DNA of 64,000 bases from Streptacidiphilus rugosus AM-16 (GTDB lineage Bacteria > Actinomycetota > Actinomycetes > Streptomycetales > Streptomycetaceae). The notes beneath the pieces are model-generated. The model ran no database searches. It was not told the DNA's origin and saw only the letters and a program-made list of their open reading frames with translations. A program made the translations under genes and the position numbers. Positions 14,589-33,313 of this stretch are shown here, piece by piece. Positions within the stretch are counted from its first letter, which is position 1; each line of letters begins with the position of its first letter. The DNA lies in NCBI RefSeq assembly GCF_000744655.1, contig NZ_JQMJ01000004.1, forward strand, positions 6,386,001 to 6,450,000, written 5' to 3'.

Positions 14589-14657
14589 CGGCCGCTCATT
14601 CCGCTCATGGCGACACAGAACCACACACACCGGACCACGCGCCTTACCCTGGGGCCC

Positions 14658-14927
14658 ATGTCCCCCTCACGACCCTGCCCGCACCTGGACCGGCTCTCCG
14701 CCGAGGAGCCGGGGGAGCTCACCCCCACCTGCGAGCACTGCCTGAAGCTCGGCCAGCGTCCCGTCGCCCTGCGCAAGTGCCTGCACTGCGGGCACGTCGG
14801 CTGCTGCGACTCGACGCCGGGCCGCTGGGCCACCGAGCACCACCGGCAGACCGGCCACGCGGTGATGCGCAGTTTCGAGCCGGGCGAGAGCTGGCGCTGG
14901 TGCTTCGAGGACCAAAGGCTCGTCTGA
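14658..14927 (+). CDS. UBP-type zinc-finger protein
   Basis: An 89-residue protein made almost wholly of one ZnF-UBP domain. Candidate ligands are Cys7, His9, Cys25, Cys28, Cys41, Cys44, Cys49/50, His61/62 and His67, in CEHCLKLGQ, KCLHCGHVGCCD and HHRQTGHAV. In eukaryotes this domain binds the free C-terminus of ubiquitin; in actinobacteria, which lack ubiquitin, its ligand is unknown. It has no signal peptide. It is divergent from the Na+/H+ antiporter, with only 69 bp between the starts, so a shared control region is likely. The GNAT gene follows 29 bp downstream and may be cotranscribed. Confidence 0.9.
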   Translation: MSPSRPCPHLDRLSAEEPGELTPTCEHCLKLGQRPVALRKCLHCGHVGCCDSTPGRWATEHHRQTGHAVMRSFEPGESWRWCFEDQRLV

Positions 14928-14956
14928 ACCGGTCTGCGACGTTCTAGGCTTCAGTC

Positions 14957-15430
14957 ATGATCCGACCTGCCACCCCTGCCGACGTTCCCGAGATCCACGC
15001 GATGGTGCGGGAGCTGGCCGACTACGAGAAGTCACTGAGCGACGCCAAGGCCACCGAGCAGCAGTTGCACGACGCGCTCTTCGCCGACCACCCGGCGGCG
15101 TTCGCGCACATGGCCGAGGACGAGCGGGGCCGCACCGTCGGCTTCGCGCTATGGTTCCGCAACTTCTCGACGTGGACCGGCACCCACGGCATCTACCTGG
15201 AGGACCTCTACGTCCGTCCGGAGTCGCGCGGCGGCGGCCACGGCAAGGCGCTGCTGACCGAGCTCGCCAGGATCTGCGTGGAGCGCGGCTACGGGCGCCT
15301 GGAGTGGTCGGTGCTGAACTGGAACGAGCCCTCCATCGCCTTCTACCGCTCGCTCGGCGCGGTCCCGATGGACGAGTGGACGGTCTACCGGCTCGCCGGT
15401 GATCCCCTCGCCGCGCTCGGCACGTCCTGA
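14957..15430 (+). CDS. GNAT N-acetyltransferase (SSAT/diamine acetyltransferase-like)
   Basis: A 157-residue GCN5-related acetyltransferase. Residues 1-60 contain MIRPATPADVPEIHAMVREL and ADYEKS, typical of the spermidine/spermine acetyltransferase-like group. Motif A is YLEDLYVRPESRGGGHGKAL with the pyrophosphate-binding RGGGHGKA loop. Motif B is RLEWSVLNWNEPSIAFYRSL. Substrates in the group are polyamines or thialysine, but this cannot be fixed from sequence. It probably forms a short transcription unit with the UBP zinc-finger gene, 29 bp upstream. Confidence 0.9.
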   Translation: MIRPATPADVPEIHAMVRELADYEKSLSDAKATEQQLHDALFADHPAAFAHMAEDERGRTVGFALWFRNFSTWTGTHGIYLEDLYVRPESRGGGHGKALLTELARICVERGYGRLEWSVLNWNEPSIAFYRSLGAVPMDEWTVYRLAGDPLAALGTS

Positions 15431-15665
15431 CCCGCGGACCCCACCGGCCCCGGCCGCGTGATCCCTGCTCTCCCTGCGCGGATTTCGCCACGCCCATTGC
15501 CACGGTGCGTATATGGCGACCTACTATGAGTCACCGAGGTGGCCCGGCCATCGGGATGGGCGACATCACACACGGGATCGCGATAGCGTCACCGGCACGG
15601 ACGAGACGTCCGGCTGCTCCACCCGACAGCACAGCACCACCCAACAGCACAGCACGGAGGTGAGG

Positions 15666-16079
15666 GTGTCCCAGATCGACGGCGAGCCCGGCGCACAGGA
15701 CTTCGTCGAGGTCCGACTTCCCGCGGCGGGTGCCTACCTCTCGGTTCTGCGAACCGCGACGGCCGGTCTCGCGGCGCGGTTGGACTTCACGCTGGACGAG
15801 ATCGAGGACCTGCGCATCGCGGTGGACGAGGCCTGCGCGATCCTGCTCCAGCAGGCCGTACCAGGCTCCATCCTCAGCTGCGTGTTCCGCCTGGTCGGCG
15901 ACTCGCTTCGGGTGACCGTCTCGGCCCCGACCACGGACGGCCGCGCCCCCGAGCGCGACACCTTCGCCTGGACGGTCCTCTCCGCCCTCGCCGGCGAGGT
16001 CGAGTCCACGGTCGAGGCGGACAAGACGGTGACCATCAGCCTGCACAAGAAGCGCGGTGCCGGCCCCGGCCAGCAGTGA
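15666..16079 (+). CDS. rshA: Anti-sigma factor, RsbW-type kinase, partner of SigH
   Basis: A 137-residue GHKL-fold serine kinase of the RsbW/SpoIIAB family that holds its cognate sigma factor inactive. The ATP-binding region starts FTLDEIEDLRIAVDEAC, with the N-box DEAC, and a short glycine-poor lid follows. The C-terminus is VTISLHKKRGAGPGQQ. GTG at 15666 is chosen, with GGAGGTGA just upstream and the family N-terminus VSQIDGEPG. The gene lies 28 bp before sigH in the same direction. Its leader has the 12-mer ACAGCACAGCAC twice, at 15626-15637 and 15644-15655. A possible -10 TACTAT sits at 15522-15527. The order matches the rshA(prsH)-sigH locus as I remember it from S. coelicolor. Confidence 0.88.
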   Translation: MSQIDGEPGAQDFVEVRLPAAGAYLSVLRTATAGLAARLDFTLDEIEDLRIAVDEACAILLQQAVPGSILSCVFRLVGDSLRVTVSAPTTDGRAPERDTFAWTVLSALAGEVESTVEADKTVTISLHKKRGAGPGQQ

Positions 16080-16107
16080 CGCAAGGAGATGGGAGCGGGG
16101 GATCGCC

Positions 16108-17139
16108 GTGAGAGACCTGAACCACAGGCCCGGAGCGGACCGGGCTGTCGTGCCCGCGCAGGCGGACGCGAGCGACCAGCAGCAGACGGAGGCAAGGGTG
16201 TTCGCGGACGATGCCGAACGCGCCGACGCGGACCAGGCCTTCGACGCGAAGCAGCCTGAGGACGGCGGCGCGAAGGCGGAGGAGGCGGTCGACTTCGAGG
16301 TGGAGCCGGACGTCGCCGAGCCCGGGACCACGGCCGAGCCGTGGGGCCCCGGCATGCGCGTGGCCACGCCCCAGCGGCACGGCGCGCCGGACCGCGAGGC
16401 CGCCCGTGCGCTTTTCGTCCGTCTCGCTCAGTTGCCCGACGGGTCGCCCGAGCGGGTGGAACTGCGGAACCAGCTGGTGCGGATGCACATCCCGCTGGTC
16501 GAGCACCTCGCCCGGCGCTTCCGCAACCGCGGCGAGCCGCTGGACGACCTGACGCAGGTCGCCACCATCGGCCTGATCAAGTCGGTGGACCGGTTCGACC
16601 CGGAGCGCGGCGTCGAGTTCTCCACGTACGCGACGCCGACCATCGTCGGCGAGATCAAGCGGCACTTCCGCGACAAGGGCTGGGCGGTGCGGGTCCCGCG
16701 CCGGCTGCAGGAGCTGCGGCTGTCGCTGACCTCGGCGACGAGCGAGCTCTCGCAGCGCCACGGCCGCTCCCCCACGGTGCACGAGCTGGCCGAGCACCTG
16801 GGCATCTCCGAGGAGGAGGTGCTGGAGGGCCTGGAGTCCGCGAACGCCTACAGCACGCTCTCCCTGGACGTGCCGGACACGGACGACGAGTCCCCCGCCG
16901 TCGCCGACACGCTGGGCGCGGAGGACGACGCGCTGGAGGGCGTGGAGTACCGCGAGTCGCTCAAGCCGCTGCTGGCGCAGTTGCCGCAGCGCGAGCAGCG
17001 GATCCTGGTGCTGCGGTTCTTCAGGAACATGACGCAGTCGCAGATCGCGGCGGAGGTCGGCATCTCGCAGATGCACGTCTCCCGGCTGCTGGCCCGCACA
17101 CTGGCCCAGCTCCGGGAGAAGCTCCTCATCGAGGAGTGA
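16108..17139 (+). CDS. sigH: Stress-response RNA polymerase sigma factor of the SigB/SigF/SigG group
   Basis: A 343-residue sigma factor. The first ~83 residues (VRDLNHRPGADRAV to AEPGTTAEPWG) are an acidic, low-complexity extension. The core holds region 2 (LDDLTQVATIGLIKSVDRFD, then STYATPTIVGEIKRHFRDK), region 3 and region 4 (FFRNMTQSQIAAEVGISQMH). GTG at 16108 with GGGAGCGGGGG upstream is chosen. A GTG at 16057 overlapping rshA and an internal ATG at 16354, right before the core, are other possible starts. In S. coelicolor sigH yields several isoforms, so the alternatives may be real. It acts in osmotic stress and septation in that species. It is cotranscribed with its anti-sigma gene and convergent with the next gene, 7 bp apart. 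Confidence 0.9.
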   Translation: MRDLNHRPGADRAVVPAQADASDQQQTEARVFADDAERADADQAFDAKQPEDGGAKAEEAVDFEVEPDVAEPGTTAEPWGPGMRVATPQRHGAPDREAARALFVRLAQLPDGSPERVELRNQLVRMHIPLVEHLARRFRNRGEPLDDLTQVATIGLIKSVDRFDPERGVEFSTYATPTIVGEIKRHFRDKGWAVRVPRRLQELRLSLTSATSELSQRHGRSPTVHELAEHLGISEEEVLEGLESANAYSTLSLDVPDTDDESPAVADTLGAEDDALEGVEYRESLKPLLAQLPQREQRILVLRFFRNMTQSQIAAEVGISQMHVSRLLARTLAQLREKLLIEE

Positions 17140-17146
17140 GTCGCTC

Positions 17147-17575
17147 CTACTGACCCGAGGGCCACAGCGCGGCGGTGGTCCTCGGGTGCAGGAGCAGCAC
17201 GACGCCCGCGACGCCGGCGAGTCCGACGAGCACGCCGACCGCGATCTGGGCTCCGCCGTTCTGGACGGTGAACCACGCCACGGCGAGGCAGAGCGTGTCT
17301 ATCATCACGGCGGGGCTGCGGCCCCACCGCTTGAGGCGCAGCAGCGCACGGCCCGCGACGAGCGGCAGCAGGCCCATCAGCAGGAGCAGCGCGCCGGCGA
17401 ACTCGGCCATGCCGACGCCGGTCTTGCTGGCGGACGTCAGCGGGGACGCCATGACGTACACGCCGTAGGCGGCGATGAGGACGCCCTGGGCGACGGAGAA
17501 CCACGCCCCGACGCTCAGCGTCCAGGGCCGGGCGGCAGCGGGGGCGGCGGCAGGCGCGGCGGCATTCACGGTCAC
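17147..17575 (-). CDS. Small integral membrane protein, four TM segments
   Basis: A protein of about 142 residues with an Ala/Pro-rich N-terminus and four predicted membrane helices (SVGAWFSVAQGVLIAAYGVY, AEFAGALLLLMGLLPLVAG, the VMIDTLCLAVAWFTVQ region, and IAVGVLVGLAGVAGVVLLL). A positively charged loop LLRLKRWGRSP lies between helices 2 and 3. No family function is known to me. The start is GTG at 17575; a second GTG at 17569 has better ribosome-site spacing, so the first two residues are uncertain. It is convergent with sigH, and a MITE-like repeat lies directly upstream. Confidence 0.8.
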   Translation of the reverse strand: MTVNAAAPAAAPAAARPWTLSVGAWFSVAQGVLIAAYGVYVMASPLTSASKTGVGMAEFAGALLLLMGLLPLVAGRALLRLKRWGRSPAVMIDTLCLAVAWFTVQNGGAQIAVGVLVGLAGVAGVVLLLHPRTTAALWPSGQ

Positions 17576-17620
17576 CTCTCCAGGCTAGCCCCAGCCGAAT
17601 CGCGATCTTCCCCAGGGCCA

Positions 17621-17793
17621 GTTGCACTCACCTCAGGGGCGCGGTGCATCTCCAGGCGAGAAACCAGGCAGTGCCCCAGGGGCGCGAGGAACTGCGCGAA
17701 CAACCACTCCGCGCGGATGGCCCTGCTCGATGAGGACCATCCGGACGTCGGTGGCTTGTCGCGCAGTTCCTCGCGCCCCTGAGGTGGTGCAAC
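17621..17793. repeat. MITE-like palindromic element, copy 3
   Basis: A 173-bp element with the same 23-bp left end as copy 2 (17621-17643) and a matching right end (17772-17793) with one base missing. The flanks GCCA and TGGC extend the symmetry. The internal sequence includes GGCCCTGCTCGATGAGGACC and shows imperfect dyad symmetry. It lies between divergent genes, so it sits in or next to both promoters. Confidence 0.85.
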
Positions 17794-17828
17794 TGGCTGG
17801 CCTGCCTCGTGTGCTGCCTACCGCTAGG

Positions 17829-17842
17829 TAGGCTGTCGGCTA
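17829..17842 (+). promoter_or_regulatory. Possible -10 box giving a leaderless transcript
   Basis: TAGGCT at 17829-17834 fits a TANNNT -10 element. The next gene's ATG starts 8 bases later, where transcription would begin, and no Shine-Dalgarno sequence is visible. The -35 region is not convincing. Confidence 0.4.
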
Positions 17843-18798
17843 TGCGTGCGCTCCTGGTCGTCAATCCGAAAGCGACCACCACCAGTGGACGGACCCGGGA
17901 CGTCCTCGCGCACGCCCTCGCGAACGATCTGAAGCTGGACGTCGTCGCCACCGGTTACCGGGGGCACGCGCGCGATCTCGCGCGCGAGGCCGCGGTCGGG
18001 GGGACGCACGATCTCGTCGTCGCGCTCGGTGGCGACGGGACCGTGAACGAGGTCGTCAACGGGCTGCTGCACGACGGGCCTGCCGAACACCTGCCCAGCC
18101 TGGCCGTGGTGCCGGGCGGGAGCACCAACGTGTTCGCCCGGGCGCTCGGGCTGCCGAACGATCCGGTCGAGGCGACCGGCCAGCTGCTCGACGCGCTCAG
18201 CGGTCCCGGCGCCCCGCGGGAGCGCGCCGTGAGTCTGGGCCGCTCCGGCGGCGAGGGGCTGCCGGACCGGTGGTTCACCTTCACGGCGGGCTTCGGGTTC
18301 GACGCCGGCGTCGTCGGACGGGTCGAGCAGGCGCGGCGCAGCGGCCGGCGGTCGACGCACTCCCTCTACGTCGGACAGGCGCTGCGGCAGTTCGCCGGCG
18401 AGCGCCACCACCGCAGGAACGGGCCGATCACGTTCAGTGCCGAGGGCCGGGAACCGGTCACCGGTCTGGCGGTGTCGATAGTCTCCAACACCTCTCCGTG
18501 GACCTATCTGGGCAATCGCCCGGTCTACGCCTCGCCGGAAGCCGGCTTCGACACGAACCTGGACCTCTTCGGCATGACCCGGATGTCACTCGTTCAGACC
18601 CTGCGCACGATTCCCCAGTTGCTCGACTCCACGGGGGCCGGGCCCCACGGCAAACATGTGGTCGCTTACCACGATCTGCCGGAATTCACCTTGCATTCGC
18701 AGGAACCGCTGCCGTTCCAGGTCGATGGGGACCACCTTGGAGAGCGTAAGAGCATCAGCTTCACAGGCGTATCTCGGGCACTGCGTGTGATTGTGTGA
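17842..18798 (+). CDS. Diacylglycerol kinase-family lipid kinase
   Basis: A 318-residue member of the DAGK catalytic family, which phosphorylates diacylglycerol or related lipids at the membrane face. The N-terminus MRALLVVNPKATTTSG is the typical first strand. The nucleotide-binding motif is VVALGGDGTVNEVVNGLL, followed by LAVVPGGSTNVFARALGLP. The C-terminal half has the beta-sandwich with FTAGFGFDAGVVGRVE and PLPFQVDGDHLGE. The ATG at 17842 begins the conserved region; the gene may be leaderless. It lies between a MITE-like repeat and wblE, the order I recall from S. coelicolor. A role in phosphatidic acid recycling is inferred from the family. Confidence 0.9.
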   Translation: MRALLVVNPKATTTSGRTRDVLAHALANDLKLDVVATGYRGHARDLAREAAVGGTHDLVVALGGDGTVNEVVNGLLHDGPAEHLPSLAVVPGGSTNVFARALGLPNDPVEATGQLLDALSGPGAPRERAVSLGRSGGEGLPDRWFTFTAGFGFDAGVVGRVEQARRSGRRSTHSLYVGQALRQFAGERHHRRNGPITFSAEGREPVTGLAVSIVSNTSPWTYLGNRPVYASPEAGFDTNLDLFGMTRMSLVQTLRTIPQLLDSTGAGPHGKHVVAYHDLPEFTLHSQEPLPFQVDGDHLGERKSISFTGVSRALRVIV

Positions 18799-19132
18799 AC
18801 GGATGGGCCATTCGGCCTTGTTCTCGAACGCGCGACCCGCTTCACTCCATCGAAGTACAGGGTGTGACCCAAGCGACACCGACGATTCAAAATTTCCTAC
18901 CCGAAGGGGGTTGTATCCCCGGTCGAGGTTTGCGAACCTTTACATGGCGATCGGGACAGTCCGTTACCGGAACCCGCCTGAGTCGCCCGAATCCACGCAA
19001 CGCTGCGAGCATCCGTACGCCGACCCACCCGTCGGCCCTGTGCCTGCCAACGGGTTCGTGAAAGCGTTCACATTCACAAGCTGCCATTGACGCAGGTGGG
19101 GGATCCCCCGCCCTTTAGAGGAGTTGGACAAG
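18799..19132. other. wblE upstream region
   Basis: 334 bp without a gene and distinctly less GC-rich around 18840-18960 (for example ATTCAAAATTTCC), as expected for a promoter zone. An exact small dyad GTGAA-AGCG-TTCAC lies at 19058-19071, and a GGGGGATCCCCC palindrome lies in the leader close to the wblE ribosome site. I cannot assign a start point. Confidence 0.5.
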
Positions 19133-19384
19133 ATGGACTGGCGCCACCGCGCTGTCTGCCGGGAAGAGGACCCCGAGCTGTTCTTCCCGATCGGCAACAC
19201 CGGGCCTGCCCTGCTCCAGATCGAGGAGGCGAAGGCCGTCTGCCGTCGCTGCCCCGTCATGGAGAGCTGCCTGCAGTGGGCCCTCGAGACCGGTCAGGAC
19301 GCCGGCGTCTGGGGTGGCATGAGCGAGGACGAGCGTCGTGCGATGAAGCGTCGCGCCGCCCGCAACCGCGCCCGCACCGCCTGA
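19133..19384 (+). CDS. wblE: WhiB-like iron-sulfur transcription regulator WblE
   Basis: An 83-residue Wbl protein with the four cluster cysteines Cys9, Cys38, Cys41 and Cys47 (C-Xn-C-X2-C-X5-C). It has the turn motif GVWGG (about residues 61-65) and a basic C-terminal AT-hook-like tail, MKRRAARNRARTA. It binds a [4Fe-4S] cluster, probably together with the principal sigma factor, and is the orthologue of mycobacterial WhiB1 and streptomycete WblE. The N-terminus MDWRHRAVCREEDPELFF is nearly invariant in the family. The ATG at 19133 has GAGGAG upstream. Its usual neighbour is a PdtaS-type kinase; here a large NRPS-like gene stands between them. Confidence 0.97.
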   Translation: MDWRHRAVCREEDPELFFPIGNTGPALLQIEEAKAVCRRCPVMESCLQWALETGQDAGVWGGMSEDERRAMKRRAARNRARTA

Positions 19385-19600
19385 CACGCTGAGTAGTCGC
19401 ACCACCCGCACCACTTCTGATCAACACGTGATCGAGTGCTCGTGCGTATCCGGGGCCCACAGCTCCGTGACAACGCTCTGAGCATTTTCCGAAGCAACGC
19501 ACACTCGGTGCGTTGCTCACTGGCCCCGATGATTTGATACCGTCGGAGCCGAGGGCAGTGGCCCGTGCCGTGCACGGAGCGCTACGCTCTCATCAGAGCC

Positions 19601-19637
19601 CCTGCTCCGGCCGACTCCCCCCGACGGCCGGAGCAGG
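19601..19637 (+). terminator. First of three hairpins after wblE
   Basis: A 12-bp stem CCTGCTCCGGCC (19601-19612) with GGCCGGAGCAGG (19626-19637) and a C-rich 13-base loop. It stands 217 bp after the wblE stop and may belong to a separate short transcript rather than to wblE. Confidence 0.55.
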
Positions 19638-19645
19638 TCAAGAGG

Positions 19646-19676
19646 CCCTGCCGAACCTCCCCCCCGTTCGGCAGGG
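19646..19676 (+). terminator. Second hairpin, followed by a T-rich run
   Basis: An 11-bp stem CCCTGCCGAAC (19646-19656) with GTTCGGCAGGG (19666-19676) and a C-rich nine-base loop. It is followed by CTCGCTTCTTCTC, so it resembles an intrinsic terminator in the plus direction. Confidence 0.6.
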
Positions 19677-19723
19677 TCTCGCTTCTTCTCCCGGTGCTTC
19701 CTTCCGGGACGGCCGACCCACGA

Positions 19724-19769
19724 CGAAGCCCCGGTCCCTCCCGCGTGTGCGGCAGGGACCGGGGCTTCG
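19724..19769. terminator. Third hairpin, terminator of the minus-strand synthetase gene
   Basis: A 16-bp stem (19724-19739 with 19754-19769) and a 14-base loop, 23 bp beyond the stop of the NRPS-like gene. It can act in both directions. Confidence 0.75.
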
Positions 19770-19792
19770 CGGTTCTCGCGGACCCGAACGGC

Positions 19793-22700
19793 TCAGGCCC
19801 AGCGGCGGACCGGGTTGCCCAGCCAGCGGGTGCCGGCCGGCAGCGTCTCGCCGCGCATCACCAGCGAGGACGGGCCCACCACGGCCCCCTCCCCCAGCGT
19901 CGAGCCGAGCAGCACGATGGAGTGCGGGCCGACCGTCGCGCCCACCCCCACCTCGATCGCGTCCATCCGCATCAGCCGGTCGTGGAAGAGGTGAGTCTGC
20001 ACCACCACACCGCGGTTGACGGTGGCTCCGTCGCCGAGGCTGATCAGGTCGGTCTCGGGGAACCAGTGCGACTCGCACCAGACCCCGCGGCCGATCCTGG
20101 CGCCCAGGCTGCGCAACCACGCGGTGAAGAACGGCGTGCCGACCAGCGTCCCGCCGAGCCACGGCATGGCCAGCTCCTCGACGAAGGTGTCGAAGAGCTC
20201 GTTACGCCACACGAACGAACTCCACAGCGGCTTTTGGCCCGCACGGAAGCGGCCCATCAGCAACCACTTGGCGGCCGTGGTGATCAGACACGCCGTCACC
20301 CCGAGCGCCAGCAGCAACACCCCGGCCAGGACCGCGGCGGCCGTCAGGCCGTCCCAGTCGAACAGGGCCTGGAGGCCGGTCGCCGCCAGGTCGCCGAGCA
20401 GGACGGCGATCAGGACCGGGACGATCCGGCACAGCTCCACCGCGGCGCGGGCACGCACGAGTCGGCGCGGCGGGTCGTAGGTGCGCGCGGTGTCCTCGCC
20501 GCCCTCGGCGACCCGCTGCACCCGCATGCCCGGACGGCCCAGCCAGGAACCGCCGGGCTCGGCGACCGGCGGCGCGTCGGAGAGGACGCCGACGAGGCAG
20601 TCGTCCGGCAGCGACCGCCCCGGAGCGACGATGCCGGAGTTGCCGACGAAGGAGCGCTTGCCGACCGAGGAGACGCCCAGGCGCAGCCACCCGCCGCGGA
20701 GGGCGAAGGAGCCGACCATGGTGTCGTCGGCCAGGAAGGCGTGGTCGTCCACCCGCATCAGGCCCGGCAGGCCGATCGCGGTCGAGGCCTCGACCCTTCG
20801 GCCGATCCGCGCCCCGAGCGCCCGCAGCCACAGCGGCGTCATCAGGCTGGCGTAGAAGGGGAACAGGGCGACCCGCGAGGAGGCCATCAGGTTGTGGACG
20901 GCCCAGACGCAGAATCCGACCCTGCCGTGGGCCGGGTGCAGACCCGGCTTGATCGGGATCGACAGCAGCCGGACCGTCACCACCACGGCCAGCGCGTACA
21001 GGCCCATGGTGAGCAGCGCCAGCGGGACGGAGGCGGCCAGGATCGAGTCGAAGACCCCGAGGTAGGAGGGGTCGTGCCCGATCAGGGTCCAGACGACCAC
21101 GACGGCCGGCAGCGCGGAGAGCAACGGCAGCAGCTGGAAGCCGGGCAGCGCCAGCGCGAAGGCCAGGTTCCAGGCGCGCGCATTTCGGTGGGCCGGCGCG
21201 GGCCACAGCTCGGCGGGGAGCACCGGGTTCTCGTCCGCGACGGCGGGGCTGCCGTGGACCCGGGCGTGCGCGGGGACGCGGCCGACGACGCAGCTGCCGG
21301 GCAGCACCTCGGCGTCGTAGCCGATCTCCGCGCCGGGCATCAGCATGGTGCGGGTGCCCACCCTGGCGCCCTTGCCGATGCGGACCGTGCCCAGGTGCAG
21401 CACGTCGCCGTCGAGCCACCAGCCGGCCGTGTCGACCTCGGTCTCCACCGCGCAGCCGTCGCCGTAGACGGCCATGCCGGTGACCGGCGGCATGCTGTGC
21501 AGTTCGACGTCGCGCCCGACGGAGCACCCGAGCAGCCGGGCGTAGCGGCGGGCGAGCGGGGTGCCGATGACGGCGGCCACGTTGAACATGCCGACCAGGC
21601 GCTCCGCCGTCCACAGCCGCAGATGGGCCGCGCCGCCGCGCGGGTGGCTGCCGGGCCTGAGGCCCGCCGTGAGCAGGCGGGCGCCGAGCGCGCCGATCAG
21701 CGAGCGGCCGACGGCGCTGGAGAGCAGCACCCAGCCGCCGACGATCAGCGCCCAGGAGGTGTGCGGGGCCCAGGGCAGCGGCCCTATGAGGTTGTCGACG
21801 GCGGCCAGGGCGAGCACCCAGCGCAGGCCGGTGACGGTGTAGAGGACGGCCAGCACCACGGCCTGGTAGAGGCCGACGTACCGCGGCACCGGCCGGACCT
21901 GGCGGACCTCCTGCGTCTCCGCGTCGCCGGCGTCGAGGTGGTCGGCCAGCGACTCGAGCCGCGGCTGCTGGTACAGGTCGGCGACGGACGCGCCGGGGAA
22001 GCGCTGCCGCAGCAGGGAGACGAGCTTGGCCGCGGCCAGGCTGGTGCCGCCCAGGGCGAAGAAGTCGCTGTCCGGGCCGACCGGCACGCCGAGGACGGCC
22101 TGCCACTGCTCGCCCAGCCATGCGGCGGTCCCGTGCAGCGGCCCGCCCGCCACCGCACCGGGGTCGGCCCCGACGCCGGACAGCGGCCACGGCAGCGCCT
22201 TGCGGTCGACCTTGCCCGAGGTGCGGGTGGGCAGTTCGGGCACGAGGGCGAGCACGGGCACGAGGGCCTGCGGCAGCCGGTCCAGCAGTTGGGTGCGGAG
22301 CGCGGCGAGGTCGGGCTCGTCCCAGCCGTCGGCGACCAGGTAGCCGACCAGGAGCTGGCCGCCGGCCGGGGTCTCCTTGACCGCCGCGGCGGCGGCGCGG
22401 ATGCCCGGCAGCGCCTGCAGCGCGGCGTCGACCTCGCCGAGTTCGATGCGGCGTCCGCCGAGCTTGACCTGTTCGTCGGCGCGGCCGACGAACACCAGAC
22501 CCTGCGGGTCGGCCCGGACCAGGTCGCCGCTGCGGTAGACGCGTTCGGGGCGGCCGTGCCACGGGGGCGCGCCGAACTTCTCTGCGTCCTTGGCCGGGTC
22601 GAGGTAGCGGGCGGTGCCGACGCCGCCGATGACGAGTTCGCCGGTCTCGCCCCAGGCGACCGGGCGGTTGTCGGCCCCGACCACGGCGAGCTCCCAGCCG

Positions 22701-23713
22701 TCGAGCGGGGCCCCGATTCTGACGGGCTGTCCGGCGCGCATCAGGGAGGCGCAGGCGACGACGGTGGCCTCGGTCGGGCCGTAGGTGTTCCAGAACTCGC
22801 GGCCGGGCACGTCCAGTCGGTCGACCAGCTCGGCCGGGCAGGCCTCGCCGCCGACGATCAGCAGCCGGACCGCGGCGAGCGCCTCCTCGGGCCAGAGCGC
22901 GACCAGGGTGGGCACGGTGGAGACCACGGTGATGCCGCGCTCGACCAGCCAGGGGCCGAGGTCCGTCCCGGCCTTGACGAGCGCGCGAGGCGCGGGGACC
23001 AGGCAGGCGCCGTGCCGCCAGGCCAGCCACATCTCCTCGCACGAGGCGTCGAAGGCCACCGAGAGCCCGGCCAGCACCCGGTCCCCCGGGCCCATCGGCG
23101 CCCGCCGCAGGAAGAGCCTGGCCTCCGCGTCGACGAAGGCGGCGGCGCTGCGGTGGGTGACCGCGACGCCCTTGGGGCGGCCGGTGGTGCCGGAGGTGAA
23201 GATGATCCAGGCGTCGTCGCCGATGCCGGCCGTGCCGGGGTCGCCCCCGGTCGGACTGGGGCCGGCCAGGACCTGCAGGCCCGCGCCGATGACGGCGCAG
23301 ACGCCGGCGTCGGTCCAGATCATCTCGGCGCGCTCGTCCGGGTCGTCCACGTCGACGGGTACGTAGGCCGCGCCCGCCCGGAGCACGCCGAGGATGGCGA
23401 GGTAGAGGTCGGCGGTGCCGCTGGGCACGCGGACGCCGACGCGGTCGCCGGGGCCGATGCCGTATCCGGCCAGCTCGGCGGCCAGCCCGCCCACGGCGTG
23501 CAGCAGCGCGCGGTAGGTCAGGACGGCGCCGTCGGCGTCGAGGGCGGGCGCGTCGGGGTACCGCCACGCGGTCTCGTCCAGGATGTCGAGCAGGGTCCTG
23601 GCCGGTGCCGGGTCGGCCACCGGCCAGACCGCTCCGGTCTGCCAGGCCGGCGCCGTGGCGGTGCCGGCCTGCCCCGGGGGGCGGGCAGGCGCGATGAAGT
23701 TCTGTTGTTCCAC
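19793..23713 (-). CDS. Pls/PosA-family membrane NRPS (predicted poly-lysine-type polyamino-acid synthetase)
   Basis: A 1,306-residue single-module synthetase. Residues 40-510 are an adenylation domain (A3 IFTSGTTGRPKGV ~171, A5 NTYGPTEATV ~309, A7 YRSGDL ~393, A8 GRADEQVKLGGRRIELGEVD ~410, A10 TSGKVDRKAL). Residues 530-595 are a carrier domain with the phosphopantetheine serine in LGGTSL (Ser558). The rest has about six membrane helices and three hexapeptide-repeat soluble regions, the architecture of epsilon-poly-L-lysine synthetase; there is no condensation or thioesterase domain. Aligning specificity positions with GrsA gives D222-A223-E226-S265-I286-G288-T310-V318-V319-K501, close to lysine codes. 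The likely product is a homopolymer of lysine or a related diamino acid. GTG at 23713 is the start. No immunity or degradation gene adjoins it. The family call is firm; the substrate is inference. Confidence 0.92.
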   Translation of the reverse strand: MEQQNFIAPARPPGQAGTATAPAWQTGAVWPVADPAPARTLLDILDETAWRYPDAPALDADGAVLTYRALLHAVGGLAAELAGYGIGPGDRVGVRVPSGTADLYLAILGVLRAGAAYVPVDVDDPDERAEMIWTDAGVCAVIGAGLQVLAGPSPTGGDPGTAGIGDDAWIIFTSGTTGRPKGVAVTHRSAAAFVDAEARLFLRRAPMGPGDRVLAGLSVAFDASCEEMWLAWRHGACLVPAPRALVKAGTDLGPWLVERGITVVSTVPTLVALWPEEALAAVRLLIVGGEACPAELVDRLDVPGREFWNTYGPTEATVVACASLMRAGQPVRIGAPLDGWELAVVGADNRPVAWGETGELVIGGVGTARYLDPAKDAEKFGAPPWHGRPERVYRSGDLVRADPQGLVFVGRADEQVKLGGRRIELGEVDAALQALPGIRAAAAAVKETPAGGQLLVGYLVADGWDEPDLAALRTQLLDRLPQALVPVLALVPELPTRTSGKVDRKALPWPLSGVGADPGAVAGGPLHGTAAWLGEQWQAVLGVPVGPDSDFFALGGTSLAAAKLVSLLRQRFPGASVADLYQQPRLESLADHLDAGDAETQEVRQVRPVPRYVGLYQAVVLAVLYTVTGLRWVLALAAVDNLIGPLPWAPHTSWALIVGGWVLLSSAVGRSLIGALGARLLTAGLRPGSHPRGGAAHLRLWTAERLVGMFNVAAVIGTPLARRYARLLGCSVGRDVELHSMPPVTGMAVYGDGCAVETEVDTAGWWLDGDVLHLGTVRIGKGARVGTRTMLMPGAEIGYDAEVLPGSCVVGRVPAHARVHGSPAVADENPVLPAELWPAPAHRNARAWNLAFALALPGFQLLPLLSALPAVVVVWTLIGHDPSYLGVFDSILAASVPLALLTMGLYALAVVVTVRLLSIPIKPGLHPAHGRVGFCVWAVHNLMASSRVALFPFYASLMTPLWLRALGARIGRRVEASTAIGLPGLMRVDDHAFLADDTMVGSFALRGGWLRLGVSSVGKRSFVGNSGIVAPGRSLPDDCLVGVLSDAPPVAEPGGSWLGRPGMRVQRVAEGGEDTARTYDPPRRLVRARAAVELCRIVPVLIAVLLGDLAATGLQALFDWDGLTAAAVLAGVLLLALGVTACLITTAAKWLLMGRFRAGQKPLWSSFVWRNELFDTFVEELAMPWLGGTLVGTPFFTAWLRSLGARIGRGVWCESHWFPETDLISLGDGATVNRGVVVQTHLFHDRLMRMDAIEVGVGATVGPHSIVLLGSTLGEGAVVGPSSLVMRGETLPAGTRWLGNPVRRWA

Positions 23714-23885
23714 GTGTGCTCTCGCCAGGCGTCGGGTGAAAGTCCAGCACGGCGCCTGCGAGGGATGCGTGTGGCGCCTGGGACTGTAGACGAATCAGCA
23801 TCCACCGTGGTTGGCGGCCTAATGGTGAGTAACGGGTAAAAAACGCCCAACAGTCAGTCAAACGGGCCGCCACCCACCAAAGGTG

Positions 23886-25346
23886 TCATTCGCAGGGGAT
23901 GGCCAACGCGACCCTGGTGCCGCCGTCGGGCACGGGTGTCATGTCGAACTGCCCGCCCAACTCGCCTGCCGCCAGTGTACGGACGATCTGCAGCCCGAGA
24001 TTTCCCGCGGTCTGCGGGTCGAAGCCCTCGGGCAGACCCGATCCGTCGTCGGTGACGGTGATGTGCAGCACACCCTCGGAGCGCCGGGCGGCCACCTCGA
24101 CGGTTCCGCCGGCCTTCGGCCCGTAGGCGTGCTCCAGGGCGTTCTGCAGGATCTCCGTGAGGATCATGCTGAGAGGGGTGGCCACCTCGGCCGAGAGGAT
24201 GCCGAAGCTGCCCTTGCGGCGGGCGGTCACCCGGCCGTCCTGGGAGAGCTCCATGACCATCGCCAGCACCCGGTCGGCGATCTCGTCGAAGGCGACCTGC
24301 TCGTCCAGGGCCATGGACAGGGTCTCGTGCACGATGGCGATCGAGCCGACCCTGCGCACCGCCTCGTCCAGGGCGCCGCGCGCCGCCTCCGAGTCCATCC
24401 GGCGGGACTGGAGGCGCAGCAGCGCGGCGACCGTCTGCAGGTTGTTCTTGACCCGGTGGTGGATCTCGCGGATCGTCGCGTCCTTGGTCATCAGCTCGCG
24501 CTCACGGCGGCGCAGCTCGGTGACGTCGCGGAGCAGCACCAGCGAGCCGATGGGCTCGCCCTTGGGCTTGAGCGGGATGGCGCGCAGCTGGACCACGGCC
24601 TCGGGGTGCTCGATCTCGGTCTGCCGCGGCGCCCAGCCGCTGGCCAGCTTGATCAGCGCCTCGTCGACCGCGCCGCGGGTGGGCGGGATCAGGTCGGCCG
24701 TGGTCTTGCCCAGATGCAGGCCGACCAGGTCGGAGCTGAGGCCGAGCCGGTGGTAGGCGGAGAGCGCGTTGGGGCTGGCGTACGTGACCACGCCGTCGGC
24801 GTCGAGCCGGATCAGGCCGTCGCCGGCCCGCGGCGAGGCGTCCATGTCGACCTGCTCGCCGGGGAAGGGAAACGTCCCGTTGGCGATCATCTGGGCCAGG
24901 TCGGAGGCGCTCTGGAGGTAGGTCAGCTCCAGCCGGCTGGGGGTACGGACGGTGAGCAGGTTGGTGTTGCGGGCGATCACGCCGAGCACCCTGCCCTCCC
25001 GGCGGACCGGGATGGATTCCACTCGAACGGGTACGTCCTCGCGCCACTCGGGGTCACCCTCACGGACGATGCGGCCCTCGTCGAGAGCCATGTCGAGCAG
25101 CGGCCTGCGGCCCCGCGGGACGAGATGGCCGACCATGTCGTCCTGGTAGGAGGTGGGGCCGGTGTTGGGACGCATCTGGGCCAGCGAGACGTAGCGGGTG
25201 CCGTCCCTGGTCGGCACCCAGAGCACCAGATCCGCGAACGAGAGGTCCGAGAGCAGCTGCCACTCGGAGATCAGCAGGTGGATCCACTCCACGTCGGCGG
25301 GTTCCAGCGAGGTGTGGTGGCGCACCAGCTCGTTCAGGGAAGGCAT
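23886..25346 (-). CDS. pdtaS: PdtaS-like cytosolic sensor histidine kinase (GAF/PAS/HisKA_2)
   Basis: A 486-residue soluble kinase. Residues 1-150 are the histidine-kinase N-terminal GAF-like domain (EWQLLSDLSFADLVLWVPT, MRPNTGPTSYQDD). Residues 170-280 are a PAS domain (LDADGVVTYASPNALSAYHR). The HisKA_2 box with the phospho-histidine is ATIREIHHRVKNNLQTVAAL (~300-320). The HATPase has a TEILQNALEHA N-box, DDGSGLPEGF and GLQIVRTL. This is the arrangement of M. tuberculosis PdtaS, whose partner is an ANTAR-domain antiterminator encoded elsewhere; no response regulator adjoins it here either. There is no membrane segment. The ATG at 25346 begins the family N-terminus. Two DasR-operator-like sites lie 90-124 bp upstream, which is unexpected for this gene. 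Confidence 0.92.
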   Translation of the reverse strand: MPSLNELVRHHTSLEPADVEWIHLLISEWQLLSDLSFADLVLWVPTRDGTRYVSLAQMRPNTGPTSYQDDMVGHLVPRGRRPLLDMALDEGRIVREGDPEWREDVPVRVESIPVRREGRVLGVIARNTNLLTVRTPSRLELTYLQSASDLAQMIANGTFPFPGEQVDMDASPRAGDGLIRLDADGVVTYASPNALSAYHRLGLSSDLVGLHLGKTTADLIPPTRGAVDEALIKLASGWAPRQTEIEHPEAVVQLRAIPLKPKGEPIGSLVLLRDVTELRRRERELMTKDATIREIHHRVKNNLQTVAALLRLQSRRMDSEAARGALDEAVRRVGSIAIVHETLSMALDEQVAFDEIADRVLAMVMELSQDGRVTARRKGSFGILSAEVATPLSMILTEILQNALEHAYGPKAGGTVEVAARRSEGVLHITVTDDGSGLPEGFDPQTAGNLGLQIVRTLAAGELGGQFDMTPVPDGGTRVALAIPCE

Positions 25347-25435
25347 GCAGCGAGCCTAGCCGGAGCACGCGCAGGTGGGCGCGGTCGCCGGGCGGGGACG
25401 CGGGAGTCCGTGGGACGTGGGCGGATTTCCTCGCC

Positions 25436-25470
25436 ATTGGTCTGGACAACGTCGAATGGTCTAGTCCACA
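25436..25470. promoter_or_regulatory. Tandem DasR-operator-like sites without an obvious DasR target gene
   Basis: Two sites resemble the DasR consensus ACTGGTCTAGACCAGT: ATTGGTCTGGACAACG at 25436-25451 (11/16) and AATGGTCTAGTCCACA at 25455-25470 (12/16), with centres 19 bp apart. They are 90 bp upstream of the pdtaS start on the other strand. On the plus strand an AAGGAG follows, but no start codon and no open gene. In S. coelicolor I recall nagB near here; no nagB is present in this window. Confidence 0.6.
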
Positions 25471-25706
25471 ATCGAAGCAGCACCAAGGAGCGACACAGTC
25501 CGCGCTATCTGCCCTGACCGCGCGGCCGCCGCTCCCACCGTCGGCCGAACCTGCCGCGCGTCCCGGGCCCGCACACCCGCCACGCTGCGACGGCTTCCTT
25601 CTCCGACGAGGCCGGAGGCCGCGGTGCCGAACGGGTTGAGGGTCCCGTCCGGCGCTCGCGGCCTTTCGTGCGTCCTGCGTCCGTTGCGCCCCGGCGGCCG
25701 AAGCCG

Positions 25707-25754
25707 CGAGCGGGCCGGGCCCGGCGCTCCCCCCGCGCCGGCCCGGCCCGCTCG
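25707..25754. terminator. Terminator of the second sugar-binding lipoprotein gene
   Basis: A long GC hairpin with left arm 25707-25727, right arm 25735-25754, a one-base bulge and a seven-base loop, 9 bp beyond the stop at 25763. The remainder of 25471-25706 shows no gene. Confidence 0.8.
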
Positions 25755-25762
25755 TCGTCCGG

Positions 25763-27049
25763 TCAGTTCCAGGCCAGCCTGGTCGTCATCTCCGTGTCGG
25801 CCGCCTGCGCGGCGGCCGAGGCGTCGTGACCCTGGAGGATCGGGCCGAGGTAGAGCGTGATCACCGGGTTCGGCGAGGTCTCCACATTGCCCCAGGTGGG
25901 CAGCAGCGGGGTGTAGCCGGCGTCGGGCGCGGACTTCGCCGCCGCCTGCGCGTAGGTGTTGCCGGCCAGCGCGCCGTAGAGGCTGGTGCGGTTCGGCAGG
26001 AACCCGGAGGTCTTGGCCATCAGCGACTCGTTGACGTCATTGAGGGCGATCTTGAGAAAGCCGAGCGCGAGGTCCTTGTTCTGGGTGTTGAGCGAGACGG
26101 TGAGGTTCGAGCCGCCCAGGAAGGTCCTGGCGGGACGGTTCGCGGTCTTGCCGGGGATGGGGAACCAGCCGATGTCGTCGGCGCTCACGTTCTTGCTCAC
26201 CGCAGTGGCGGCCTCGTAGCCCATGGCGATCATGCAGCCGACGTTGCCCTTGGCGAACTCCGCGGCCTGGTTCGCCTCGTTGACGTCGACCGGGGCCTTG
26301 CCGAAGCTGCGGAGCTTCTTGAAGAAGGCGGTGGCGCGCAGCGCCTGCGGGCTGTCGAGGTTCCCGCTCCAGACCCCGGGCGAGTCCTCGCGCACCAGCT
26401 GGGCGCCCTCGTCCTGGAGGAAGCCGTCGAAGGCGTACCAGTTCTGTCCGGGCAGCCACATGGCCGAGCTGACGCCCGAGGTCTGCTGCAGTGTGGCGAG
26501 GTCGCTCAGCCACTGCTCCTGGGTCGTGGGGGTCGGCCCGAGTCCGGCGCGCTTCCAGAGCTTCTTGTTGTACATGACGACCCGGTTGCCGGCGTACCAG
26601 GGGGCCGCGTACTGCTTCTTCTGGTAGATCGTCGACTTGTTCATGAAGCTGTTCCAGGTGGAGGCGCCGAGCCCGCCCAGATACGGCGTCAGGTCCATGA
26701 GCCCGCCGGAGGCGGCGTAGTACGGGGTCTGCGTGTTCCCGATGTCGATGACGTCGGGCGGGGTGAGCGAGGCGAGGGCGTCGGTCACCTTCTGCTGGAT
26801 GCCGGTCCAGTCCTGGACCTGGAAGTCGATCTTCGCGCCGGCGTACTGCTGCAGGAACGCGCTCTTGACCGAGTCCATCCAGGCGGCGGAGTCGTCGCCC
26901 TTCATGAGCCAGACCACGAGGGTCTTCCCCTGCCAGCTGGTGGGCGACGGACTGCTCTTGGCCTGCCCGAGCCCGGAGAGGCCGCAGCCGCTCAGGCTCA
27001 GCGCGACCGCTGCCGAACAGATCCCCAGAACCGCCTGACGATGTCTCAT
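25763..27049 (-). CDS. ABC transporter sugar-binding lipoprotein (second DasA-like protein)
   Basis: A 428-residue family-1 solute-binding lipoprotein. The signal peptide MRHRQAVLGICSAAVALSLS ends in the lipobox LSGC (Cys22 or so), giving a lipid-anchored receptor outside the cell. The mature part has the expected fold markers (TLVVWLMKGDDSAAWMDSVK, PDVIDIGNTQTPYYAASGG, GFLPNRTSLYGALAG). It has no permease genes of its own and lies 148 bp downstream of dasD in the same direction, so it probably serves the DasB-DasC permease or an unlinked one. Two DasR-like operators lie 17-58 bp upstream of its ATG (27049), indicating control by DasR with GlcN-6-P as inducer. The ligand is probably a chito- or related oligosaccharide (inference). 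Confidence 0.9.
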   Translation of the reverse strand: MRHRQAVLGICSAAVALSLSGCGLSGLGQAKSSPSPTSWQGKTLVVWLMKGDDSAAWMDSVKSAFLQQYAGAKIDFQVQDWTGIQQKVTDALASLTPPDVIDIGNTQTPYYAASGGLMDLTPYLGGLGASTWNSFMNKSTIYQKKQYAAPWYAGNRVVMYNKKLWKRAGLGPTPTTQEQWLSDLATLQQTSGVSSAMWLPGQNWYAFDGFLQDEGAQLVREDSPGVWSGNLDSPQALRATAFFKKLRSFGKAPVDVNEANQAAEFAKGNVGCMIAMGYEAATAVSKNVSADDIGWFPIPGKTANRPARTFLGGSNLTVSLNTQNKDLALGFLKIALNDVNESLMAKTSGFLPNRTSLYGALAGNTYAQAAAKSAPDAGYTPLLPTWGNVETSPNPVITLYLGPILQGHDASAAAQAADTEMTTRLAWN

Positions 27050-27065
27050 GCCCGCACCACTCCCC

Positions 27066-27107
27066 AATGGTCTCGACCAATTTCCGGGAAGTTTGGTCCA
27101 GACCATT
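27066..27107 (-). promoter_or_regulatory. Two DasR-operator-like sites upstream of the second binding-protein gene
   Basis: AATGGTCTCGACCAAT at 27066-27081 matches the DasR consensus at 13/16 positions, and TTTGGTCCAGACCATT at 27092-27107 at 12/16. Their centres are 26 bp apart and the nearer one is 16 bp before the ATG, so bound DasR would cover the promoter or start site. Confidence 0.75.
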
Positions 27108-27197
27108 GGGGCCGTCAATGCGCCCGTGCTACGGGAGGGGATCCGTTACTCGACTGGGACCTCGGCCGGTCCCGGCGCGTGATGCTCGGTGTACTGC

Positions 27198-28769
27198 TCA
27201 GTGCTGAACCGTGGGCTGACCTGTCAGGACCTCGACAGCCGCCAGGCCGCAGACCCGCGCCGCGCCGTGCGTGGCGATGTGCAACGCGCCCCGCGCGGCG
27301 GCCTGGGGCACGCCCATCTCGACCACCGCGGCGTCCGGGCGGCCGGCCAGCAGGCCGTCCAGCGCCCGCGCGATCCACTCGTGCCGGTGCAGGTCCCGGA
27401 CGACCACGACGAGGCGGCGTCCGGCCGACTCCCGGCGCAGCCGCTCGACCAGCGCCGGCAGCAGCTCCGGCGTGGCGTCCCGAGGGCCGACGCTCTCTGC
27501 GCGCGTCCCGGGGAAGCGCGCGGCGAGCATCCCCGCCACGCCCCAAGGCGTCTCGTCGCCGACCGCGATGTTCGCGATCGGGCTGAAGGAGACCACGTAG
27601 GGGCGCTCGGTGATCGGCACGAAGCCGGAGCCCGGCGTCCTGGTGACCCGCAGGGCACGGCGCGCCGCCCGGAGCCCGATGGCGAGGTCGGGGGCCAGCC
27701 TGCCGCTCGCCTCGACCTGCTCGGTGGTCCACTGACCCAGCGCGCGGACCCGGCCCGCGGCCTCGGCCAGCCGTTCCTCGCTCAGCTCGCCGTCGCGCAC
27801 CGCCTGGACCAGCGCGTCGCGCAGCAGCAGCACCGTCTCCTCGTCGGCCAGACCGCCGCCGACGCAGATCGCGTCCACGCCCGCGCCGATGGCCAGCACG
27901 CTGCCGCGGGTGACGCCGTAGGTGTCCGCGATGGCGCCCATCTCGATGCCGTCGGTGACGATCAGGCCCTGGTAGCCGAGGCCGCCGTCGGCCGGGGAGT
28001 TGCGCAGCAGCTGCAGCACGGCCCGGCTCAGCGTCGCGGGCCGGTCCCCGTCCAGCGCCGGGACCATGATGTGGGCGGTCATGACGGCCTTGGCCCCGGC
28101 GGCGATCGCCGCCTTGAACGGCACCAGGTCGCGCGAGCGCAGCAGGTCCACGTCGATGTCGACCACCGGCAGACCCAGGTGCGAGTCGACGGCGGTGTCG
28201 CCGTGGCCGGGGAAGTGCTTGGCGCAGGCGGCGACGCCCACCGACTGCAGCCCCTCGACCCAGGCGGCGGTGTGCCGCGCGCAGAGGTCGGGGTCGGCGC
28301 CGAAGGAGCGGACCCCGATGACCGGGTTGTCGGGGTTGGAGTTGACGTCGGCGGAGGGCGCCCAGTTGTAGTTGACGCCGCACTCGGCCAGGGCCCGGCC
28401 GAGCTCGCGGGCGACGTCCCTGGTCAGGCCCGGGTCGTCGACCGCGCCGAGGGCGAGGTTGCCCGGCCAGGACGAGCCGCTGCCGGCCTCCAGCCGGGTG
28501 ACGTCCCCGCCCTCCTCGTCGATGGCGACCAGCACGTGCGGGTTCTCCGCGCGCAGCTCGGCGGTGAGCGCCGCCAGCTGCTCGGGGTCGGTGACGTTGC
28601 GGGCGAAGAGCGCCACCGAGCCCAAGCCGTCGCCGAGGTGGCGGCGCAGCCAGTCGGGCGGGGTGGTGCCGACGAATCCGGGCTGCAGCACCGTGAGCGC
28701 GTCGCGGTGGAGCCGGTCCCTCGTCCGAGCGGTCCTGGCTGACGACGGGTCGAGGATGCTCACGTTCAC
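27198..28769 (-). CDS. dasD: Beta-N-acetylglucosaminidase, glycoside hydrolase family 3 (DasD)
   Basis: A 523-residue cytoplasmic GH3 enzyme that cleaves imported chitobiose to GlcNAc. The NagZ-type signature KHFPGHGDTAVDSH (residues 184-197) carries the His/Asp general acid/base dyad. The nucleophile is Asp273 in VTDGIEMGAI. VAIDEEGGDVTRL and NYNWAPSADVN are further GH3 markers. A C-terminal domain of about 170 residues completes the protein. There is no signal peptide, consistent with an intracellular role. The start is GTG at 28769, one base after the dasC stop, so translation is coupled; a second GTG at 28763 is possible. It lies directly downstream of the DasABC transporter genes. Confidence 0.93.
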   Translation of the reverse strand: MNVSILDPSSARTARTRDRLHRDALTVLQPGFVGTTPPDWLRRHLGDGLGSVALFARNVTDPEQLAALTAELRAENPHVLVAIDEEGGDVTRLEAGSGSSWPGNLALGAVDDPGLTRDVARELGRALAECGVNYNWAPSADVNSNPDNPVIGVRSFGADPDLCARHTAAWVEGLQSVGVAACAKHFPGHGDTAVDSHLGLPVVDIDVDLLRSRDLVPFKAAIAAGAKAVMTAHIMVPALDGDRPATLSRAVLQLLRNSPADGGLGYQGLIVTDGIEMGAIADTYGVTRGSVLAIGAGVDAICVGGGLADEETVLLLRDALVQAVRDGELSEERLAEAAGRVRALGQWTTEQVEASGRLAPDLAIGLRAARRALRVTRTPGSGFVPITERPYVVSFSPIANIAVGDETPWGVAGMLAARFPGTRAESVGPRDATPELLPALVERLRRESAGRRLVVVVRDLHRHEWIARALDGLLAGRPDAAVVEMGVPQAAARGALHIATHGAARVCGLAAVEVLTGQPTVQH

Positions 28770-28770
28770 G

Positions 28771-30614: not shown

Positions 30615-30645
30615 CACTGTGCTCCTCAGTTTTCCTCTTCACGCG

Positions 30646-30699
30646 GTCGTGCTGTGCCAACAGATCGTGCTGTGCCAAGGGTGGTGCTGAGCCAAGGCG
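30646..30699. repeat. 18-bp tandem repeat, three copies, in the dasA-dasB gap
   Basis: Units at 30646-30663, 30664-30681 and 30682-30699 share the core CGTGCTGTGCCAA; the third has diverged. They lie immediately upstream of dasB in the transcript. No protein frame uses them. Confidence 0.7.
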
Positions 30700-30715
30700 G
30701 ACCGTGCCTGGGGCA

Positions 30716-30752
30716 GAGCGGGCCGGATCGGGGATCCCGATCCGGCCCGCTC
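30716..30752 (-). terminator. Hairpin after dasA within the das operon
   Basis: A perfect 17-bp stem (30716-30732 with 30736-30752) and a GAT loop, eight bases beyond the dasA stop. It probably acts as a partial terminator or a 3' stabiliser for the dasA message. Confidence 0.8.
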
Positions 30753-30759
30753 AGATTGA

Positions 30760-32049: not shown

Positions 32050-32164
32050 GCCATCCTCCTGGGATGCCCGGATTCCCCCCATCTGTTCCGGTTGCGGCCT
32101 CTCGCGACGAGCAGTGTGCGGAGGCCGCCGTCCCAGTGATGGGTCGGGGAGTTGTAGTGGTCGA

Positions 32165-33308: not shown

Positions 33309-33313
33309 GACCG

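Follow-up and report, generated by a model that had tools for sequence, protein, structure and literature searches.

The 64,000-nucleotide stretch of Streptacidiphilus rugosus AM-16 analysed here (contig NZ_JQMJ01000004.1, positions 6,386,001 to 6,450,000; hereafter the window) carries a pls-type gene whose 1,306-residue product is most probably a membrane-bound, single-module, iterative epsilon-poly-L-lysine synthetase (Pls). The enzyme type is a known one, and we infer lysine as its substrate, the isopeptide linkage, the chain length and secretion by analogy with characterised members of the family. The open reading frame of this length that the original prediction had placed at 19793-23713 exists and lies on the minus strand, a detail absent from that prediction. 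The gene and the parts of its product, all on the minus strand, are as follows.

19793..23713, minus strand: pls-type gene, 1,306-aa epsilon-poly-L-lysine synthetase homologue, the copy at the window locus (open reading frame, TIGR02353, AMP-binding and PP-binding matches, tree, dN/dS)
22178..23653, minus strand: adenylation (A) domain, residues 21-512, with code residues D222, A223, E226, S265, I286, G288, T310, V318, V319 and K501 (alignment to 7wew)
21935..22120, minus strand: carrier (PCP) domain, residues 532-593, with phosphopantetheine serine S558, codon 22040-22042 (Pfam; serine invariant in 114/114 alignment rows)
19808..21868, minus strand: Pls/PosA C-terminal membrane polymerisation domain, residues 616-1302 (TIGR02353, AlphaFold2 model, matches to left-handed beta-helix acyltransferases)
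21668..21883, minus strand: membrane helix pair 1, model residues 611-682 (hydropathy and AlphaFold2 model)
21236..21529, minus strand: soluble beta-helix region C1, residues ~729-826 (AlphaFold2 model)
20960..21178, minus strand: membrane helix pair 2, model residues 846-918 (hydropathy and AlphaFold2 model)
20579..20812, minus strand: soluble beta-helix region C2, residues ~968-1045 (AlphaFold2 model)
20258..20425, minus strand: membrane helix pair 3, model residues 1097-1152 (hydropathy and AlphaFold2 model)
19811..20101, minus strand: soluble beta-helix region C3, residues ~1205-1301, with an invariant QTHLFxDR motif, H1241 codon 19991-19993 (AlphaFold2 model, alignment)

The A domain gives the most direct indication of substrate. 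It is 69% identical over 482 aligned positions to 7wew, the epsilon-poly-L-lysine synthase of Streptomyces albulus, and its pocket, DAESIGTVVK, equals the 7wew pocket at 10 of 10 positions. The best match of the protein in the Protein Data Bank (PDB) is likewise 7wew, at 680 bits. For PosA (8g95), the ornithine enzyme, the score is 204 bits; that chain is shorter, with 414 residues, and lacks the C-terminal part of the A domain. Aspartate at pocket position 1 (D222) and glutamate at position 3 (E226) are those of the Pls/PosA family, and position 2 holds alanine (A223) rather than the methionine of PosA. According to PMC10522769, lysine enzymes have Ala at position 2, PosA has Met (Met218) and enzymes for diaminopropionic acid (DAP) or diaminobutyric acid (DAB) have Phe, and a beta-lysine enzyme carries the code DGESISVVNK. 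The enzyme is very likely specific for lysine. The code that the original prediction read by hand is the one that the alignment to 7wew returns, and its assignment to a Pls type with a lysine-like code agrees with the best PDB match, the identical pocket and the position in the tree beside the S. albulus type. The one-position departure from a lysine code DAESIGSVVK was mistaken: 7wew has T at position 7, leaving 0 of 10 differences.

The remainder of the protein has the architecture of the same family. Pfam recognises AMP-binding (residues 46-369) and PP-binding (residues 532-593) but no condensation or thioesterase domain, and residues 616-1302 match the Pls/PosA model TIGR02353 at 655.3 bits against a curated cut-off of 423.1 (NCBIfam). 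Hydropathy places three clusters of membrane segments at about 618-673, 850-925 and 1088-1153. An AlphaFold2 model of residues 596-1306, run with 38 aligned sequences, reached a mean predicted local confidence (pLDDT) of 87.8 and a predicted template-modelling score (pTM) of 0.89, and has three sets of long helices alternating with three lobes of short regular strands; helix pair 3 is a single unbroken helix in the model's DSSP assignment and is taken as a pair from hydropathy. Foldseek matched the model mostly to left-handed beta-helix (hexapeptide) acyltransferases in the PDB, with 31 chains at E<=0.001 that include serine acetyltransferase and GlmU; the template-modelling scores normalised on the query are only 0.09-0.14, as expected for matches to a single lobe. 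The protein thus combines A-PCP, three membrane helix pairs and three beta-helix lobes, as members of the Pls/PosA family do, and the outline given in the original prediction (A-PCP with neither condensation nor thioesterase domain, about six membrane helices, three hexapeptide-like regions) is upheld by Pfam, hydropathy, the model and Foldseek. K501 of the A domain, S558 of the carrier and Q1239, H1241, D1245 and R1246 of the C3 motif are invariant in 114/114 rows of the tree alignment, distant outgroups included, and the beta-helix acyltransferase fold of the model suggests that H1241 may be catalytic. The gene has a GTG start, which is kept together with the first codons in six of the six nearest loci aligned, the window included.

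In the mechanism that we propose, which follows published descriptions of S. albulus Pls and PosA, the A domain would activate L-lysine as the adenylate and load it on the carrier serine, Ser558. The C-terminal domain, pictured as three left-handed beta-helix acyltransferase-like lobes set on six membrane helices, would then repeatedly link the alpha-carboxyl of lysine to the epsilon-amino group of another lysine, and would release the chain outward.

Named relatives for the tree were gathered for their similarity to the window protein, and the 80 best of at least 594 were kept. We sought the full-length S. albulus Pls in 394 genomes of the family with the 7wew A domain and did not find it, the best match being 92%; a stand-in with 92% A-domain identity to 7wew (L030), to which the window protein is 60% identical, therefore represents it. 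Close matches to the S. albulus A domain (E<=1e-180) occur at least once in 205 of these 394 sampled genomes, so the enzyme type is common. The FastTree tree has 114 rows, with local support only and long-branch warnings, and omits the fragments L114, L116 and L122-L125. Lysine-code enzymes split in it into two large groups of 33 rows (support 88) and 74 rows, and the 33-row group includes both L030 and the window protein, apart from the DAP/DAB-type pockets. Among proven Pls, the tree represents only the S. albulus type, through L030. Placement among non-diamino-acid enzymes, which would tell against the original prediction, is not what this phylogeny gives, as the protein groups with the S. 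albulus type. The exact code DAESIGTVVK is found in 108/114 rows and with one change in L113; the four outgroup rows read DFECLSAVTK (two), DFECLSVVSK and DFEYVGTVTK. The remaining row, L127, reads RGASIGTVVK, and we treat it as a broken or misassembled start instead of a new code, its match being split in two pieces. The four outgroup synthetases (L118-L121) come from different genomes within the order and share 36-38% identity with the window protein, and their Phe at pocket position 2 (DFECLSAVTK and similar) is as reported for DAP/DAB homopolymer synthetases.

The two groups can also be described by the gene that follows them, as a peptidase of the M1 family lies directly downstream in 79 of the 119 surveyed loci by a script rule, a matter of context and not a defining feature of the enzyme (four loci, L027, L045, L113 and L116, end too soon downstream to judge). 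The 74-row group spans many actinobacterial genera and has the peptidase just downstream in 72 rows by that rule; in the other two, L082 and L094, the M1 gene lies close by but outside the rule, and both were set as positive by hand for the tree. A 28-row clade inside the 33-row group holds the window protein and has the peptidase in two rows, L022 and L026. No adjacent pldII was detected in the 25-row subclade that holds the window protein (the contig of L113 ends early), a subclade made up of sequences from the window's genus, Kitasatospora, some Streptomyces and one further genus of the family (G019). Four Kitasatospora/Streptomyces loci (L023, L024, L025 and L097) share another neighbourhood, with the same two small genes upstream and downstream and no pldII detected, and are possibly a second case of a lineage-fixed orphan copy. 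In Amycolatopsis (L078, L095) a lysine-code synthetase branches deeply, its placement carrying a long-branch warning, and the flanks fetched contain no M1 peptidase.

Searching the whole genome changes the picture drawn from the locus. Three TIGR02353 proteins score above the cut-off, and each carries the lysine code. Besides the window copy they are L098 and L099, respectively 68% and 57% identical to that copy. L098 is at a different locus, and L099 belongs to the other main clade and is followed by a 456-aa M1 peptidase (Pfam Peptidase_M1) with a HExxH motif, which we call a putative PldII-type peptidase from its position and family. A genome search placed this peptidase at C4:2766559 and also gave a 36% relative at C4:3019825, along with three weaker M1 matches; none of these lies within the 64-kb window. 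The absence of a degrading enzyme next to the gene, as first described, is therefore correct for the locus and misleading for the genome, and the idea that one gene alone accounts for the polymer does not survive the finding of three synthetases, one with a PldII-type peptidase adjoining. Counted by place, the 14 genomes examined from the genus hold two copies in eight cases and three in six, those of G007 being broken into pieces. In 14/14, one copy has an M1 peptidase just downstream (L099, L117, L124, L126-L136), so a candidate degrading enzyme is present in trans, and the PldII-type peptidase of the L099 pair could protect the cell in this way. The accessory third lysine-code synthetase (L098, L111-L113 and the fragments L114 and L122) occurs in 6/14 genus genomes with no pldII detected, in L113 as far as the early end of its contig. 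The A domain of L099 has a long Ser/Thr/Pro/Ala-rich stretch in its first half, before WIIFTSGSTG, which the window copy lacks.

The window copy is a lineage-specific extra synthetase: it belongs to the subclade without a detected adjacent pldII, and it fills a site that holds pls in the genus and not in its relatives. The site is bounded as follows.

23886..25346, minus strand: PdtaS-type sensor histidine kinase, upstream neighbour and one edge of the insertion site (Pfam, synteny)
23714..23885, minus strand: 172-bp pdtaS-pls spacer with blocks conserved in six orthologous loci, a candidate pls promoter region (alignment)
19124..19384, plus strand: WhiB-family regulator, convergent downstream neighbour and other edge of the insertion site (Pfam Whib, synteny); we take it to be wblE from gene order

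By the gene calls, pls is the sole gene between pdtaS and wblE; no search aimed at mobile elements was made. It is found there in 13/14 genus genomes. The remaining genome (G011) has a contig end 339 bp past pdtaS and carries pls pieces of 88-91% identity on another contig, of 4.7 kb. Outside the genus the site lacks pls in 26/26 genomes fetched (23/23 same-family and 3/15 same-order genomes of the relatives set), with the flanking genes about 135-640 bp apart, and pls therefore entered on the branch to the genus or within it. The window copy is under purifying selection, with ratios of nonsynonymous to synonymous substitution (dN/dS) of 0.13-0.26 among the six nearest orthologues (15 pairs, ~1,300 codons, NG86).

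The history of the site is less simple than these counts. The 12 full-length window-locus rows form two groups of six, both in the FastTree tree and in a quick IQ-TREE tree of 24 rows, and the second six group with the accessory copies L098 and L111-L113 (support 99), hinting at duplication or exchange between copies. A single clade of all 12 rows was rejected by the approximately unbiased (AU) test, with p-AU 0.017 under LG+G4 without a mixture model; the group was defined by locus, but the test was run after the first tree had shown the split. One insertion followed by simple vertical descent is weakened by this value and by the nesting of accessory copies among window-locus copies. The tree is consistent with a single insertion, one branch of which later gave rise to the accessory copies; it would also fit exchange among the copies or a site entered twice.

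Several observations weigh against the assignment of the window protein as a polylysine synthetase, or loosen the evidence for it. The comparison with full-length S. albulus Pls was made through the stand-in L030, the large tree is a FastTree tree only, with its long-branch warnings, and the rejection of a single window-locus clade complicates the descent of the copy. The 204 bits of PosA are by themselves no fair measure, since the 8g95 chain is shorter. The shared code is partly built in, since relatives were gathered by similarity to the window protein and the pattern CEEMWLAW covers code position 3; its uniformity among them shows consistency and is not independent proof. Finally, Corynebacterium variabile has a working pls, yet its cultures yielded no polymer (PMC8117764); a gene may thus be functional without being expressed.

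One alternative, which we consider unlikely, is that the window protein is a lysine-activating enzyme of the Pls family with another output: a short oligomer, a chain held back or capped at the envelope, or a product whose synthesis is confined to acid pH, in a role other than that of a secreted antibiotic. It draws on the lack of an M1 peptidase in the window and beside pls at the window-locus orthologues (0/12 loci fetched), on the same core locus throughout the genus, on the pls-pldII-type pair already in the genome, and on the report that Pls itself is the main determinant of chain length (PMC8506220). The tryptophan kept near the S. albulus chain-length position W646 (W648 here, in approximate numbering) gives no hint of short chains, however, and no anchoring or modifying gene was recognised among the neighbours, part of which are annotated. 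That the gene is a paralogue which is silent or redundant and yields no polymer in nature is rather improbable: two further lysine-code synthetases in the genome and the silence of the C. variabile pls in culture (PMC8117764) speak for it, but the full-length frame at the locus in 12/14 genus genomes, purifying selection and the conserved upstream spacer do not. The two exceptions are the contig break in G011 and G007, an assembly rated 76% complete with all three copies broken, in which the window-locus pls lies in broken frames. Ten-residue codes are imperfect predictors of substrate, which leaves some room, even with a lysine-type pocket, for a different diamino acid as the one polymerised (ornithine, beta-lysine, DAB or DAP). 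PosA is indeed modestly active with lysine (PMC10522769), but with a pocket 10/10 equal to that of Pls, neither DGESISVVNK nor Phe or Met at position 2 in the window protein, and 680 bits with the Pls A domain against 204 with the shorter PosA chain, polymerisation of another diamino acid is very improbable.

An iterative polylysine synthetase thus remains our preferred assignment, and its neighbourhood is worth a brief description. At 25766-33308 of the window, a GH3 gene and two permease genes lie between two genes for solute-binding proteins, and a GntR/UTRA regulator (dasR-like) follows; we take this to be a das-type chitobiose locus. At up to three mismatches, 43 12-mers resembling DasR sites occur in the window against 13.5 expected, and all six with one mismatch lie at 25457-32365. 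A pair of such dre-like sites (25438-25449 and 25457-25468) lies upstream of pdtaS, itself on the pls strand and ahead of pls, and a dre-like site with at most one mismatch occurs in 14/14 genus genomes. DasR control of pls was nevertheless set aside, as a dre-like site is also present within 400 bp in 15 of the 20 genomes examined outside the genus (these 20 being drawn from the 23 same-family genomes, which have no pls at the site), compared with 22/490 background tiles, and the site therefore predates pls at the locus. The window's pdtaS-type kinase is presumably the counterpart of SCO5239. In S. coelicolor, the dre at SCO5239/scr5239 is reported to be bound by DasR (PMC4398421). The dre-like site of the window may serve an scr5239-like RNA or the kinase, and a DasR link to pls through read-through from pdtaS is possible. 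No Rfam match at gathering thresholds was found in window positions 14000-34000. A sigma-factor gene (Pfam) lies near pls, and a 1,093-aa regulator with Trans_reg_C, BTAD, NB-ARC and TPR repeats (SARP/AfsR-like; 33314-36595) is close to both the das and the pls genes.

The biology of the organism offers a setting for an extra synthetase. Epsilon-poly-L-lysine is an antimicrobial polymer and a commercial preservative whose natural role is less well understood (PMC8117764), and Streptacidiphilus generally grows at pH 3.5-6.5 (PMC7601586). One possible hypothesis is that an acidophile tolerates the loss of the linked peptidase. A broader reading, which we hold as speculative, is that polylysine synthesis is a core, genus-wide trait of Streptacidiphilus, with the second synthetase fixed at pdtaS-wblE without a degrading enzyme, and that at low pH the polycation serves the cell itself, by protecting the envelope, by adhesion or by buffering, either in place of or alongside a role as a secreted antibiotic kept in check by PldII. 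The rejection of one window-locus clade lowered our confidence in this reading slightly. In the open-access library searched we found no paper joining Streptacidiphilus with poly-L-lysine or polylysine, and no account of the genus's extra pldII-less copy at a fixed core site; a term search of the main text of a genome-mining paper on the genus (PMC7601586), without its supplementary table of predicted structures, found no occurrence of 'lysine'. A genus with two or three copies in 14/14 genomes, one of them at a fixed core locus away from a degrading enzyme, constitutes a natural test of the polymer's purpose. It is also a source of synthetases whose hosts grow close to the pH of polymer accumulation in S. 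albulus.

Among known systems, S. albulus Pls is the closest. Both enzymes have A-PCP followed by three repeats of a membrane helix pair and a soluble lobe, an identical ten-residue pocket and 69% A-domain identity. They differ in context: pls is followed by pldII in S. albulus (PMC9223678), and an M1 gene follows L030, whereas the window copy has neither and lies between pdtaS and wblE. It is L099 with its M1 peptidase that matches the S. albulus pls-pldII arrangement (PMC9223678). Near the S. albulus chain-length position W646, Trp is kept in the window protein (W648) and in 105/114 rows, with numbering approximate and off by about one, L030 being the stand-in; the L883 position falls in a variable stretch with no safe alignment. 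In L019 (Kitasatospora aureofaciens CPD02), which has no pldII detected, the position roughly matching W646 is Arg; K. aureofaciens, which has three copies, is a reported short-chain producer (PMC8506220).

The Pls of C. variabile, known here from PMC8117764, resembles the window protein in family and predicted substrate; it makes epsilon-poly-L-lysine on heterologous expression and is 51% identical to Streptomyces Pls (PMC8117764), a lower identity than the 60% between the window protein and the S. albulus stand-in L030. PosA of Acinetobacter baumannii (8g95-8g98) has the same family, domain order and pocket Asp and Glu, and is also a lone gene; its published AlphaFold model shows the same layout as our model of the window protein (PMC10522769). 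It differs in Met at pocket position 2, in its preference for ornithine (PMC10522769) and in its 204 bits to the window A domain, on the shorter chain, against 680. Synthetases of the PDAP/PDAB type (homopolymers of DAP and DAB) share the family architecture and are set apart by Phe at pocket position 2 (PMC10522769).

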